Below, in pieces: positions 40,922 through 55,924 of a stretch of DNA of 64,000 bases. This stretch comes from Sulfuricurvum sp. (GTDB lineage Bacteria; Campylobacterota; Campylobacteria; Campylobacterales; Sulfurimonadaceae): the NCBI RefSeq assembly GCF_028710345.1, contig NZ_JAQTUH010000001.1:186001-250000 (forward strand). The letters run 5' to 3'. Positions within the stretch are counted from its first letter, which is position 1; each line of letters opens with the position of its first letter. Below the pieces are notes generated by a model. That model made no database searches and was not told the DNA's origin. It saw only the letters and a list, made by a program, of their open reading frames with translations. Position numbers and translations under genes: made by a program.

Positions 40922-41251
40922 ATGAATAAGTTGCTCTCAATCTTATTGGTTGCGGCACTCAGTGCCTCTGTTGCTTCAGCTGATGCTAAAGCGGGTCAAA
41001 AAGCGTATTTAAAAACGCTCAAAGCAAAGTTCAACATGAACGGTACCAAATTTGCCGCCGATCATACGGTAGCGGAGTGGGAAGAGCTTTTTGCCAATGG
41101 GGCAAAAGGGTTTATCAAAGAGTACAGTGAAAAATATCCCGCTTCAGCAGCGGTTTTAAGCAGTCCAGATATGGCGGATAAACTCCAAGATGTCGGGGAT
41201 TTTGCGAAAGAGTACGGTTCGGATAGTGGAAACGTTCCGAGTTGTGGGTAA
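40922..41251 (+). CDS. Cytochrome c-like periplasmic protein lacking the haem motif
   Basis: A 109-residue exported protein (signal peptide 1-20, cleavage after ASA). It is clearly paralogous to the monohaem cytochromes at 46805 and 49792: all share GQKAY, then NGTK or NGIK, then EWEELF, and with the first also EYGSDSGNVP and a final cysteine. Where they have C-x-x-C-H at residues 37-41, this one has Leu33-Lys-Ala-Lys36-Phe37, so haem cannot be attached covalently. The frame is intact, with AAAAGGAG before the ATG, so it is a maintained gene and not a decayed one. A function as subunit, chaperone or metal-binding protein is open. Confidence 0.8.
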   Translation: MNKLLSILLVAALSASVASADAKAGQKAYLKTLKAKFNMNGTKFAADHTVAEWEELFANGAKGFIKEYSEKYPASAAVLSSPDMADKLQDVGDFAKEYGSDSGNVPSCG

Positions 41252-46804: not shown

Positions 46805-47134
46805 TTAACAGGTCGGTACGTTGCCTGAATCAGAACCGTATTCAAACAAGAAATCGCGTAAATCTTGCGCTTGACTTTTGAAACCATCACCGTTAAAAAA
46901 TGCAGATGATTTATCTTTTGCATGAGCTTTGACGATTTTTGCTCCGCCGTTTGCGAAAAGTTCTTCCCATTCATCTTGTGTATGCATAGCGGCACCTTTT
47001 GTTCCGTTGCCGTGGCAATTCTTACACGTTTTGAGATAGGCCTTTTGCCCTTTTTTAATATCAGCTGAGGCAGTTGATACCATTGTTCCAACAGCGAGTA
47101 GAATCGCTAAAAGAGATGAAGTTGTTTTAGACAT
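46805..47134 (-). CDS. Monohaem c-type cytochrome, paralogue 1
   Basis: A 109-residue periplasmic cytochrome: signal peptide 1-24, haem motif CKNCH at residues 37-41, then GNGTKGAAMHTQDEWEELFA and a C-terminal EYGSDSGNVPTC with a lone final cysteine. ATG 47134 is preferred over 47143 because AAAGGA is then about 8 bases upstream; the ATG overlaps the stop of the previous gene (TGATG). It is co-transcribed with the two-domain C-x8-C protein. Its close paralogues are at 40922 (haem motif lost) and 49792. Confidence 0.92.
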   Translation of the reverse strand: MSKTTSSLLAILLAVGTMVSTASADIKKGQKAYLKTCKNCHGNGTKGAAMHTQDEWEELFANGGAKIVKAHAKDKSSAFFNGDGFKSQAQDLRDFLFEYGSDSGNVPTC

Positions 47135-47706
47135 CACACACATCCTTTGAAGAACTCTTTTTTGCCACCTTCATAAATCATGTTTTCGAGCTTTAGTGTA
47201 TCTCCATCGATTTTACCGAAAAAGCCGACACCGTTTTGCATAATCGCATGGTCAATTTTTGTTTTACTCACAGTTTGTTTATCTAATTGATATGTTTTAC
47301 CACCAATAACGGCTACTACTTTATCTCCATCAGAGTATTTTTTGAGATCACAATCAGAAAATTCACCTTTATCAGCGCATGACTGAATACCTAAAAATCC
47401 TTTCATATCAGGTACACGTTCAATTTCAGAAGCAATAATACGATTGCCTTCGATGACACCTTTGAATGATACATCATCGTGTCCTAAAGCTACTTCGAGT
47501 TGAGGTTCTGAAATTTTTGGATTTACAATGGTGTATTGTTTTCCATCAATAACAGCAATTAGTGGATCATTTTTAGTGTAATTTGCATAGGTGCAACCAT
47601 TGGTACAGTTTTTACTGAGAAGAGTACCTACATAAGTAGTTTCTTCTATTTCCGTTGCCATTAAACTAAGAGCGCAGAGAGAAATAATCGTGAGAGCTTT
47701 TTTCAT
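47134..47706 (-). CDS. Exported protein with two C-x8-C-type domains
   Basis: A 190-residue protein from ATG 47706 (MKKALTIISLCALSLMA signal peptide). The ATG at 47715 sits directly on the AAAGG site, so 47706 with 9-base spacing is better. The mature part is two tandem copies of one domain: YVGTLLSKNCTNGC (Cys34, Cys38) with PLIAVIDGKQYTI, and FLGIQSCADKGEFSDCDLKK (Cys110 and Cys119) with KVVAVIGGKTYQL. It ends in FFKGCV. The domain also occurs in the single-domain proteins at 47951 and 49394 that flank the radical SAM gene. I know no family name for it. Confidence 0.78.
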   Translation of the reverse strand: MKKALTIISLCALSLMATEIEETTYVGTLLSKNCTNGCTYANYTKNDPLIAVIDGKQYTIVNPKISEPQLEVALGHDDVSFKGVIEGNRIIASEIERVPDMKGFLGIQSCADKGEFSDCDLKKYSDGDKVVAVIGGKTYQLDKQTVSKTKIDHAIMQNGVGFFGKIDGDTLKLENMIYEGGKKEFFKGCV

Positions 47707-47766
47707 CTTATTCATCCTTTATTATGTCGAATAATCAGTCTCCTCTGACGAGATGTCAGGAACTTC

Positions 47767-47778
47767 GGATCATGATCC
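47767..47778. promoter_or_regulatory. Perfect 12-bp palindrome in the divergent control region
   Basis: GGATCATGATCC, extended by CTT/AAG with one mismatch on each side, about 60 bases upstream of the minus-strand start. It could be an operator or a terminator-like hairpin in the leader of the minus-strand operon. Confidence 0.4.
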
Positions 47779-47888
47779 AAAGACGCTTTATTTGAAATCG
47801 TTAAAAGTACAATATTCCTTTTTAGCTTACATAATTATTAATTATTTGTGATAATAATGTGATTTTATTATGACGTGTCACAATTTTA

Positions 47889-47907
47889 TAGCAAAATTTG
47901 CTACAAT
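47889..47907 (+). promoter_or_regulatory. Palindrome overlapping a -10 element before the radical SAM operon
   Basis: TAGCAAAATTTGCTA (47889-47903) is a perfect inverted repeat about a single central base. Its last two bases start a TACAAT -10 element (47902-47907). A protein bound there would block the promoter. The leader would be about 37 bases. Confidence 0.5.
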
Positions 47908-47920
47908 ACTTTTGAATGCG

Positions 47921-47937
47921 TATCAAAAAATTTGATA
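47921..47937 (+). promoter_or_regulatory. Second inverted repeat at the leader end of the radical SAM operon
   Basis: TATCAA-AAAAT-TTGATA, perfect 6-bp arms, ending 3 bases before the GGAG ribosome-binding site. It resembles half-sites of CRP/FNR-type operators (TTGAT..ATCAA read in inverse order), but position downstream of the start point suggests repression or an RNA hairpin. Confidence 0.4.
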
Positions 47938-47950
47938 GATGGAGCTAACA

Positions 47951-48325
47951 ATGCAAAAAACATTGGTCATTTCGCTAAGTAGTATTTTCTTTACATTACC
48001 TCTATTGGCAGATGTCACATCCACAGAAAAAGAAGGCTTTTTACTAACTAAGGAGTGTTTGCAGAAAGGGGAATTTACTGAATGTCCACTAGAACAGCTA
48101 AAGAAAATATCAGGGACGAATCCAATTATGTTGTTTCAGGGAACGGAAGCTAAAACATACATATTGGATATTAGTGGAATCGATAAATCAAAGCTGGATA
48201 AAGTTGCTTTTAAAAATAATATCATCGTTACAGGGACATTGCAAAGTGATAATGTAACTTTAAAAGTTAGTAATATTGTCCAAAAACCAATTTATAAAGA
48301 AATTCGAAGAAGTGGAGTAATATGA
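47951..48325 (+). CDS. Exported C-x8-C protein A, upstream of the radical SAM gene
   Basis: A 124-residue exported protein. I start at ATG 47951 (MQKTLVISLSS) because GGAG lies 6 bases upstream and the paralogue at 49394 has the same N-terminus and the same ATGGAGCT leader; the ATG at 47939 is part of that leader. Signal peptide about 1-20. The only two cysteines are Cys36 and Cys45 (KECLQKGEFTECPLEQL), followed by NPIMLFQGTEAKTYILDI and a beta-rich end, KEIRRSGVI. The stop overlaps the radical SAM start (ATGA). It is a candidate substrate of that enzyme; the family is unknown to me. Confidence 0.78.
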   Translation: MQKTLVISLSSIFFTLPLLADVTSTEKEGFLLTKECLQKGEFTECPLEQLKKISGTNPIMLFQGTEAKTYILDISGIDKSKLDKVAFKNNIIVTGTLQSDNVTLKVSNIVQKPIYKEIRRSGVI

Positions 48326-49392
48326 ACCTCACTCTCTCCCTCACTCACGCTTGTCAACTCCGATGCAATTACTGTTATGCAGGGGAGAAAATCGATAAAC
48401 GGATGAATGAAGAGACCGCGATGCGTGCTATCGATTTTGCGTTTGAGTACCCATCGCAGGAGATGATACTCGGATTTTTCGGGGGTGAACCGTTGTTGGA
48501 GTGGGATTTACTTCAAAAATCGGTAGAGAGAGTCGAAGAAAAAGCCAAAAATACCAATACCTATCTTACCAAAACCCTCACAACGAATGGATTATTGTTG
48601 GATGAGGCAAAAGCTTTATGGTTATCTCAACATGGTTTTCATATCGCCCTTTCTCTCGATGGGAACGAAAAAATGCACAGCACCCACAGAGTGTTTGCTA
48701 ACCAAGCCTCTTCATTTGAGCACACATTCTCAGCTCTCAATATCATCAAAAAATATTTTGATTCTAACCATTTCACGATTATCACAGTGGTTACCCCTCA
48801 AAATGTACATCATCTTTATGAATCGGTGGTAGAATTAGTAGAGCAACACGGGGTGAACCATTTTACCCTTAGTCCGAATCTTTATACTACTTGGGATGAG
48901 GGAGAAACTCTTTGGCAAGAGCAGTATGCGCGTATCGGAGAATATGTGATTTCCTCTTATGAAAAAGGGACTCCTATCTCGGTGAGTTTTATCGACCGAA
49001 AAATCGAAGCGACCCTTAATGAGCATTGTCGTGTTTGCAGTTTTGGAGAGATGGAGATTGCCGTTGCCCCATCGGGCAATATCTACCCATGCGAACGGTT
49101 GATTGGGGATGATTCGGGTGCCGTATTACTGGGTAATGTCCATGGTGGATTTGACATCCCAAAACGTCAAGAAATCTTGCGTGCACGCGGATGTGCTTAT
49201 AGTGAATGTGAAACGTGCGAAATACAAACACGGTGTCAAAACAGTTGCGGTTGTACCAACTATAGCCTCAGCGGAGAGATTAATCTTCCGACACCGATTT
49301 TGTGTTTTAATGAAAAGCTTTCAATATCGATTGCGGATTATGTATATTCTCAGCTGAGTGAAAACAGCTATTTTATAGAGAGATGGAGCTGA
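48322..49392 (+). CDS. Radical SAM/SPASM-domain peptide- or protein-modifying enzyme
   Basis: A 356-residue radical SAM enzyme. The SAM [4Fe-4S] cluster is held by Cys11, Cys15 and Cys18 (CQLRCNYC), with GGEP at 54-57. The C-terminal SPASM domain is complete: Cys239-x12-Gly-x4-Cys257, then Cys296-x2-Cys299-x5-Cys305-x3-Cys309, then Cys328, for two auxiliary clusters. Additional cysteines are 236, 291 and 311. This architecture is that of sulfatase-maturating and RiPP-maturing enzymes (thioether or C-C cross-linking). No sulfatase is near. It is sandwiched with almost no spacing between two exported C-x8-C proteins, which are the obvious candidates for modification in the cytoplasm before export. 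Confidence 0.92.
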   Translation: MNLTLSLTHACQLRCNYCYAGEKIDKRMNEETAMRAIDFAFEYPSQEMILGFFGGEPLLEWDLLQKSVERVEEKAKNTNTYLTKTLTTNGLLLDEAKALWLSQHGFHIALSLDGNEKMHSTHRVFANQASSFEHTFSALNIIKKYFDSNHFTIITVVTPQNVHHLYESVVELVEQHGVNHFTLSPNLYTTWDEGETLWQEQYARIGEYVISSYEKGTPISVSFIDRKIEATLNEHCRVCSFGEMEIAVAPSGNIYPCERLIGDDSGAVLLGNVHGGFDIPKRQEILRARGCAYSECETCEIQTRCQNSCGCTNYSLSGEINLPTPILCFNEKLSISIADYVYSQLSENSYFIERWS

Positions 49393-49393
49393 T

Positions 49394-49789
49394 ATGCAAA
49401 AGACACTGATGATTTCACTGAGTAGTATTTTATTTGTTGCCCCTATGATGGCTGGGGATGTGTATGCAGGGCTATTGACGACACAGCAATGTTTAGCATT
49501 AAAAGAACGGATGGACTGTCCAATGAAGCAATTGGATAAAATTACTCCTCAAAATCCTCTCATGATTTATCAAGAAAATGAAAGTAAACTCTATGTATTA
49601 GATGTCTCAGCAATCGATAAAAAAGATTTAAAGGCAATCGGATTTAGAAACGGTGTTTATATTTTTGGACATTTAAGTGCAGATGGAACAACGTTTGTAG
49701 TTAGAAAAGTATCACCACCGCGACCATTGGAAGATGTAAAAAATCAAGCCTTTATTGAAGGATGGACAAGACCAAGTGGTGCAGGTTGA
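49394..49789 (+). CDS. Exported C-x8-C protein B, downstream of the radical SAM gene
   Basis: A 131-residue paralogue of the protein at 47951: signal peptide MQKTLMISLSSILFVAPMMA, the only cysteines at 33 and 42 (QQCLALKERMDCPMKQLDKI), NPLMIYQENESKLYVLDV, and IFGHLSADGTTFVVRKV. It has an extra C-terminal tail ending EGWTRPSGAG. It starts one base after the radical SAM stop, and its ribosome-binding site GATGGAG lies in the last codons of that gene. Substrate, partner or scaffold of the enzyme; no known domain recognised. Confidence 0.78.
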   Translation: MQKTLMISLSSILFVAPMMAGDVYAGLLTTQQCLALKERMDCPMKQLDKITPQNPLMIYQENESKLYVLDVSAIDKKDLKAIGFRNGVYIFGHLSADGTTFVVRKVSPPRPLEDVKNQAFIEGWTRPSGAG

Positions 49790-49791
49790 TT

Positions 49792-50112
49792 TTATTGGTC
49801 TGAGTCAGATGCACTATATAATAAAAAGTCTCTTATATCTTTGTAGTGAATTGAAAATAACTCTGTTTTGAAAAAAGCGTCAGCTTTTTCATCCTTTTGA
49901 TGGGCTTGTTTGATTTTGGTACCGTTATTGGAAAATAGTTCCTCCCACTCTACTTGGGTATGCATTGCAGCACCTTTAATTCCATTGCCATGACAAACTT
50001 TGCAATTTTTAATATACGCTTTTTGTCCTTTTGGTATATTAGCAAATGCATTAAATGTAAAAACATTAGTAATAAAAATGACTACAAGGAAACGTAAAGT
50101 GATTTTGCTCAT
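49792..50112 (-). CDS. Monohaem c-type cytochrome, paralogue 2
   Basis: A 106-residue periplasmic cytochrome with signal peptide 1-24 and CKVCH at residues 37-41, followed by GNGIKGAAMHTQVEWEELFS. It closely follows paralogue 1 (46805) through the first 60 residues, then diverges and ends LLYSASDSDQ without the final cysteine. It is convergent with the C-x8-C protein B gene, 2 bases apart. TAGGAAC precedes the ATG. Confidence 0.88.
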   Translation of the reverse strand: MSKITLRFLVVIFITNVFTFNAFANIPKGQKAYIKNCKVCHGNGIKGAAMHTQVEWEELFSNNGTKIKQAHQKDEKADAFFKTELFSIHYKDIRDFLLYSASDSDQ

Positions 50113-54832: not shown

Positions 54833-55852
54833 TTAATTATTAACAACATCCACTTTAGGAGTTTTAGCGGTAGAAGCCGGCAACATTGGATAAACAACCG
54901 TCGGTTTTTTACCCTCTAACGCTTTTAAAAATGTTTCGATTTCTACTGTTTCGTTATCATTGATATCAACACCGAGTTGGATACGACCCATCTCTTTGAT
55001 TGCATCTGTGAGTGTTGTCATTTGACCGTTGTGGAAATAAGGTGCGGTTTGTGTCACATTACGTAATGTCGGTACACGTACCATCCCGTTTTTATCCCCT
55101 TTGAAATCGCCTACGTTCATGTGTTTATACGGAGCGACCACACCGAAAGCTTGCATTGTTCCGCCAAGTGCGATGTCGTTATGACAGGTAGCACACCCTT
55201 TGGTAATAAAGGTTTTAAGCCCTTTTTGCTCTGTAGCTGTAAGTGCGTTTTTCTTTCCGTTCAAGAAATCATCGTAGCGTGATGGAGTTACTAATGTACG
55301 TTCAAACACGGCGATGGTATCAGCGATTTTTTCAAACGTAATTTTGACATCTTTGCCGTACGCTTTTTGGAACAGTGTAACGTACTCAGGCATAGAGGTA
55401 ACCACGCCGACTACGAAATCTTTCGGTGCTGCCATCTCAGGTCCTGCTTGAATCGGCCCTTGGGCTTGGTCTTCGAGATGCGGAGAGCGTCCGTCCCAAA
55501 ATTGTTGGCTATAAAATACAGCATTATAAACCGTCGGTGAACTCAAATGGTGTGGATTAGCAGTCCATTTATGCCCGATAGCAGCAGCCATGCCGTCTGT
55601 TCCGCCAATGGCAAGATTGTGACAGCTGTTACAGCTAATCAAGCCGCTTTTAGAGAGACGCGGTTCAAAATAAAGCATTTTTCCCAATTCTACTTTTGCG
55701 GCAGTGGTTGGGTTTTTAGGGTTAGAGGTGAGTTTTTCGAGAGCTTTTATGTTCGATGGAATCGGTTTTAAACCGGCTGTTTTAGCGTCATCGATGAGGG
55801 ATGCTCCCATAAGTGATGTGGCAACTATTGCTGATAAAATGAATGTTTTCAT
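54833..55852 (-). CDS. Dihaem cytochrome c peroxidase
   Basis: Periplasmic peroxidase of the CcpA/MauG superfamily, reducing H2O2 with electrons from small cytochromes. Start ATG 55852 (MKTFILSAIVATSLMGA) with AAGGATT about 8 bases upstream; the upstream frame to 55897 is spurious. It has 339 residues and two haem motifs, CNSCH at 74-78 and CATCH near 220, plus LGKMLYFEPRLSKSG, NAVFYSQQFWDGRSPHLEDQ, and VRVPTLRNVTQTAPYFHNG typical of bacterial CCPs. The mature end is Lys/Thr/Pro-rich. Confidence 0.92.
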   Translation of the reverse strand: MKTFILSAIVATSLMGASLIDDAKTAGLKPIPSNIKALEKLTSNPKNPTTAAKVELGKMLYFEPRLSKSGLISCNSCHNLAIGGTDGMAAAIGHKWTANPHHLSSPTVYNAVFYSQQFWDGRSPHLEDQAQGPIQAGPEMAAPKDFVVGVVTSMPEYVTLFQKAYGKDVKITFEKIADTIAVFERTLVTPSRYDDFLNGKKNALTATEQKGLKTFITKGCATCHNDIALGGTMQAFGVVAPYKHMNVGDFKGDKNGMVRVPTLRNVTQTAPYFHNGQMTTLTDAIKEMGRIQLGVDINDNETVEIETFLKALEGKKPTVVYPMLPASTAKTPKVDVVNN

Positions 55853-55924
55853 AGGTGAATCCTTGCGGTAATTGGATTGGAATGAAAATTGTAGCACAAT
55901 AACCTAAAGGAAAATTTTTATCCT

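Follow-up and report, generated by a model that had tools for sequence, protein, structure and literature searches.

QhpD is a SPASM enzyme that puts Cys-Asp/Glu thioethers into a small protein, QhpC, which is exported afterwards. Many SPASM maturases require partner proteins. PapB joins Cys-Xn-Asp with n = 0-6, and Glu is also accepted (PMC9413430). The locus described here lies in a window of 64,000 nucleotides from a Sulfuricurvum genome, where a radical SAM/SPASM gene is flanked by two genes for small exported proteins. The gene content would fit a sulfur oxidiser within the Campylobacterota. Literature searches for radical SAM with Sulfuricurvum and for SPASM with Sulfurimonas found nothing in the collection of papers searched.

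The radical SAM/SPASM enzyme and its neighbours

The enzyme (356 aa; 48322..49392, plus strand) matches Pfam PF04055 (E 1.5e-15). It carries a CX3CX2C radical SAM motif (Cys11/15/18) and, at C239, C257, C296, C299, C305, C309 and C328, the full set of cysteines in SPASM spacing, so that the complete SPASM enzyme described in an earlier note on this DNA is confirmed. An N-terminal recognition domain is absent; the N-terminus consists of ten residues ahead of the first cluster Cys. Among 79 matching NCBIfam models the PapB model NF047865 is best (209.6 bits, E 6.9e-62), then CcpM, then SCIFF and nif11-type maturases, and the matching SPASM models also include cyclophane and other chemistries. 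All scores are below the curated cut-offs, that of PapB being 340 bits, and the enzyme therefore falls outside the PapB family as curated. The earlier note had proposed comparison with such maturase models: the sulfatase maturase scores far lower than PapB, so the enzyme is not sulfatase-type. The nearest solved structure is CteB (5wgg), a SCIFF thioether maturase (E 2.2e-31). Judged by these matches, the enzyme is predicted to be a SPASM maturase of the thioether-forming kind, closest to PapB but below its cut-off.

The upstream gene, B (47951..48325, plus strand; 124 aa, beginning MQKT), overlaps the enzyme gene by ATGA (48322-48325), and the downstream gene, C (49394..49789, plus strand), follows the enzyme after a gap of 1 base (49393). 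Both are candidate substrates, and both predicted exported proteins contain exactly two cysteines, spaced C-x8-C (CLQKGEFTEC in B, CLALKERMDC in C). Divergent from B lies A (47134..47715, minus strand), an exported two-domain member of the same family. The earlier note had seen A as a two-domain version of the C-x8-C domain, which is true of domain 2, where C-x8-C and a C-terminal FFKGCV are kept, and not of domain 1, which has C-x3-C. The other features reported there, namely the reading frames and their coordinates, the overlap, the 1-base gap, the two cysteines of B and C, and the lack of a sulfatase or amine dehydrogenase near the cluster, all stood on re-reading. The ORF list shows no small ORF or candidate target enzyme in the cluster, and a promoter and terminator scan of it gave no more matches than shuffled sequence. 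Neither B nor C matches a family model in Pfam or NCBIfam. The structure model of B (pLDDT 69) weakly resembles an OB fold: OB-fold proteins make up most of the top VIA-align rows, with a best Z of 7.8 that is below the telling level, and Foldseek returned no match under E 0.001. The model of A was poor (pLDDT 48.6) and was left out of the analysis.

Two c-type cytochrome genes border the cluster. One (46805..47143, minus strand; CKNCH) overlaps the end of A and shares 80% identity with a further copy in this genome. Its paralogue (49792..50112, minus strand; CKVCH) converges on C, as had been noted before. The family counts 7 homologues in this genome and at least one in 41/41 genus genomes, and being so ubiquitous its presence says little about the cluster; the partnership with the C-x8-C proteins suggested by the earlier note is weakened by the same count. 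Elsewhere in the window (40922-41251, plus strand) a further paralogue has its heme motif replaced by KTLKAKFNMNG and keeps the C-terminal Cys. The heme motif is missing in 9/9 genus loci readable by the search pattern, and this paralogue is apparently conserved without heme.

C arose as a duplicate of B and differs from it in the C-terminal tail. In their DNA the two resemble each other from GATAGATGGAGCT onward, some 17 bases ahead of the start codon; before this point one copy has coding sequence of the enzyme and the other intergenic DNA. The duplicated leader GAGAGATGGAGCTGAT (49378..49393, plus strand), which is the ribosome-binding site of C, aligns with its counterpart immediately before 47951. 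The last codons and stop of the enzyme (AGA TGG AGC TGA) lie within the copied leader, so C was joined directly to the 3' end of the enzyme gene by duplication of the B gene together with its ribosome-binding site. A start of B at 47939 was judged less likely: ATGGAGCTAACA is the ribosome-binding region instead, and since it recurs as the duplicated leader before C, the start is most likely 47951. B and C share 70% identity in the signal peptide and 35% in the mature part. In ancestral pairs whose mature parts are about as similar, signal-peptide identity never exceeds 54% (n=11; the pairs are not independent), and in the next identity bin 4/353 pairs reach 65%. Synonymous differences affect 5/13 informative codons in the leader and 21/39 in the mature part, which does not point to a recent copying of the leader by itself.

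An exported family of DMSO-reductase operons

C-x8-C homologues were found in 30/41 genus genomes (query B) and 19/397 phylum genomes (query A). Three loci were read in longer stretches (L049, L050, L051), including the fourth copy of the window's own genome. L049 and L050 contain a rhodanese gene, genes for the alpha, beta and heme-b gamma (EB_dh) subunits of a type II DMSO reductase, the C-x8-C gene, and genes for a TorD-type chaperone and an iron-sulfur protein; the gene families were named for L049. L051 has the same genes from the beta subunit onward, up to the contig end, and shorter flanks at other loci also show the gamma subunit and chaperone. At these fully read loci, where no radical SAM gene is present, the family supplies an accessory gene to the rhodanese/type II DMSO-reductase operon.

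The protein encoded there is unannotated and has five cysteines (L049:9733-10131; L050:9959-10351; L051:9857-10255). In the 37 copies outside the window, C-x8-C-x6-C-x4-C and a C-terminal FFKGCL are invariant. The C-x8-C, conserved in 37/37 copies without a radical SAM enzyme, thus has a role of its own. The protein ends in a PPPP arm with a penultimate Cys, which presumably recalls the sulfur carriers SoxY and DsrC. B, C and domain 2 of A are homologous to it. In the tree B and C group as one clade, on long branches and with a support of 0.984; the C-x8-C pair is all that they have, the C-x4-C and the penultimate Cys being absent, and beyond C-x8-C domain 2 of A keeps only the C-terminal Cys. 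By homology, B and C are best placed as a diverged branch of this unannotated exported family, not as a new domain bound to radical SAM enzymes. The earlier note had tied the domain to the enzyme, and this does not hold: 30/41 genus genomes have the domain and no other sampled one has the enzyme. It had also named wide occurrence of C-x8-C genes without radical SAM as refuting its proposal; such occurrence is found for the family and not for the B/C subclade, which is seen only beside the enzyme.

Relatives of the enzyme and the PHLH protein

Few relatives of the enzyme were detected. It occurs in 1/200 family genomes, this genome itself (E<=1e-30). The order search (E<=1e-24) found it in 3/399 genomes, namely this one, G518 and G553; the phylum search (E<=1e-20) gave 5/397, three of them QhpD-type loci and the other two this genome and G518. 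No other sampled genus genome contained the enzyme, and the B-enzyme-C arrangement occurs in this genome alone. The true relatives are those of G518 (36% identity) and G553 (34%; this one is truncated where its contig stops); they share 56% identity with each other. The QhpD-type loci seen in other order genomes (L004-L006) encode a QhpD-type maturase with a QhpC-like protein and are ordinary quinohemoprotein amine dehydrogenase loci.

The gene just downstream of the enzyme encodes, in G518 as in G553, a protein of 115-119 aa that lacks cysteine and has GGWP...PHLH motifs (L007:9825-10172 and L052:1094-1453, each on the minus strand). A profile search found this PHLH protein in 2/399 order genomes, exactly these two, and it is absent from the window's genome. 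It has no credible match in Pfam, NCBIfam or the PDB, and hhalign finds it unrelated to B and C (probability 0.6%). The two enzymes have no C-x8-C neighbours; the C-x8-C protein of G518 is on a separate contig, in the DMSO-reductase setting. As they adjoin the PHLH protein instead, the enzyme lineage is not always paired with C-x8-C proteins. The PHLH protein is a candidate new radical SAM substrate or partner. A di-heme cytochrome c peroxidase-like protein is encoded in the window at 54833-55897 (minus strand), and a similar gene lies near the G553 enzyme (L052:2-931), probably by coincidence.

Searches of other sequence collections added little. Among genome contigs, the enzyme as a single-protein query had a sole match at 23% identity. 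In viral contigs, single-sequence searches with the enzyme and with B gave no match, nor did a search with PHLH, and the enzyme alignment matched one 25% fragment. Plasmids yielded only SPASM enzymes below 28% identity for the enzyme and nothing for A or PHLH. Phage records held low-identity radical SAM matches only.

Proposed modification, alternatives and known systems

For the substrates, the bond, recognition and function we infer the following. The enzyme would act in the cytoplasm as a PapB/SCIFF-like maturase on the co-translated B and C, with their conserved signal-peptide region serving as its recognition leader. A Cys of the C-x8-C loop would form a thioether with a nearby acidic residue, with loss of 2 H; the likeliest bonds, each within a C-x4-E with Glu at +5, are Cys33-Glu38 in C and, counted from Met 47951, Cys36-Glu41 in B. 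After cross-linking the proteins would be exported and take up a small OB-like fold in the periplasm. Their ancestor is the accessory protein of the DMSO-reductase operon with its five cysteines, of which B and C have lost all but the C-x8-C pair, and for that reason they probably act as a modified form of it in periplasmic sulfur/electron chemistry together with A and the cytochromes. Enzyme-dependent thioether formation before export is the preferred reading, put forward tentatively, at somewhat short of even probability. In its favour are the affinity to PapB and CteB, the ATGA and 1-base coupling, the junction of the C duplication, the signal-peptide conservation and the Glu at +5 from the first Cys, which is present in domain 2 of A, B and C and in only 1/37 ancestral copies. 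This Glu may also reflect shared ancestry, and the signal-peptide identity of B and C may be the product of other constraints. Counted against the proposal are the working of the C-x8-C family without radical SAM in the majority of genomes, the other partner of the enzyme relatives, the restriction to one genome, the PapB score and the missing recognition domain. Since their family usually occurs without such an enzyme, the link between B/C and the enzyme is plausible and testable rather than shown.

The C-x8-C of B and C could be a simple disulfide. The enzyme might be a mobile SPASM maturase with its real substrate elsewhere or lost, B and C being ordinary disulfide-bearing accessory proteins that flank it by chance; we rate this as doubtful, if a distinct possibility. 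It would fit the wide occurrence of the family without radical SAM, the patchy distribution of the enzyme, the pairing of both its relatives (2/2) with a PHLH protein that the search of 399 genomes found nowhere else, and the third-position GC of 0.42 in the enzyme and 0.25-0.26 in B and C, which hints at separate origins. It is harder to reconcile with the lack of PHLH in the window's genome, translational coupling on both sides, a duplication junction at the very stop codon of the enzyme, and flanking paralogues that shed all cysteines but the C-x8-C pair and kept their signal peptides. Another chemistry or target, such as a sactionine, a C-C bond or a decarboxylative change outside the C-x8-C loop, or a change on A or the tail of C, with the loop forming a disulfide after export, is decidedly unlikely. 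The range of chemistries among the matching SPASM models and the conservation of C-x8-C in copies without radical SAM would allow it; thioether maturases are the best-scoring models, however, and an acidic residue at +5 is all but confined to the paralogues in the window. That the enzyme serves a small peptide not yet recognised, or a redox enzyme, whose gene lies elsewhere in the genome, with B and C as its helpers or carriers, seems very improbable: partner proteins are needed by many SPASM maturases and the relatives have a non-cysteine partner, but the cluster itself offers neither small ORF nor candidate enzyme.

If thioether formation in B and C is true, a radical SAM maturase was captured for a pre-existing exported redox-accessory domain, and the signal peptide doubles as the maturase leader. 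A wider version is unlikely in our estimate: a SPASM enzyme would have been recruited for a duplicated periplasmic carrier domain of a molybdoenzyme operon, a fixed thioether replacing disulfide or sulfur chemistry and the Sec signal acting as leader, which would place the locus outside the described systems. The analysis also brought to light a widely conserved, unannotated accessory protein with five cysteines that belongs to the rhodanese/type II DMSO-reductase operon, and the PHLH protein as a new candidate radical SAM partner.

Several known systems resemble the locus in part. With the anaerobic sulfatase maturase it shares a SPASM radical SAM enzyme proposed to act on exported proteins, but that identity was rejected at 113.1 bits against a cut-off of 349.45 with no sulfatase adjoining. 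QhpD/QhpC likewise combines a SPASM enzyme with a small protein exported after modification, as proposed here; the enzyme is 28-29% identical to QhpD, scores 112.7 bits against 453, and has no adjoining QhpC-like partner or amine dehydrogenase. The SCIFF maturase CteB is the closest solved structure, but the score is 138.8 bits against 425 and no six-cysteine SCIFF peptide was seen; the QhpD and SCIFF assignments were likewise rejected on score and gene neighbours. The C-x8-C protein of the DMSO-reductase operon is homologous to B, C and domain 2 of A, and differs in its five invariant cysteines, its PPPP arm with penultimate Cys and the lack of radical SAM nearby. PapB modifies short peptides with repeated C-x3-D; the candidates here are exported domains of 124-131 aa with Sec-type signals, no repeated C-x3-D/E peptide adjoins the enzyme, and the Cys-acid pairs in B and C are only C-x4-E, C-x7-E/D, C-x2-E and C-x5-D. 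PapB is nevertheless the best-scoring family (209.6 bits of the 340 required) and is likewise a SPASM enzyme with two auxiliary-cluster motifs, and since four residues separate Cys and Glu in the B/C loop, within PapB tolerance, the pair would be acceptable to PapB-type chemistry (PMC9413430).
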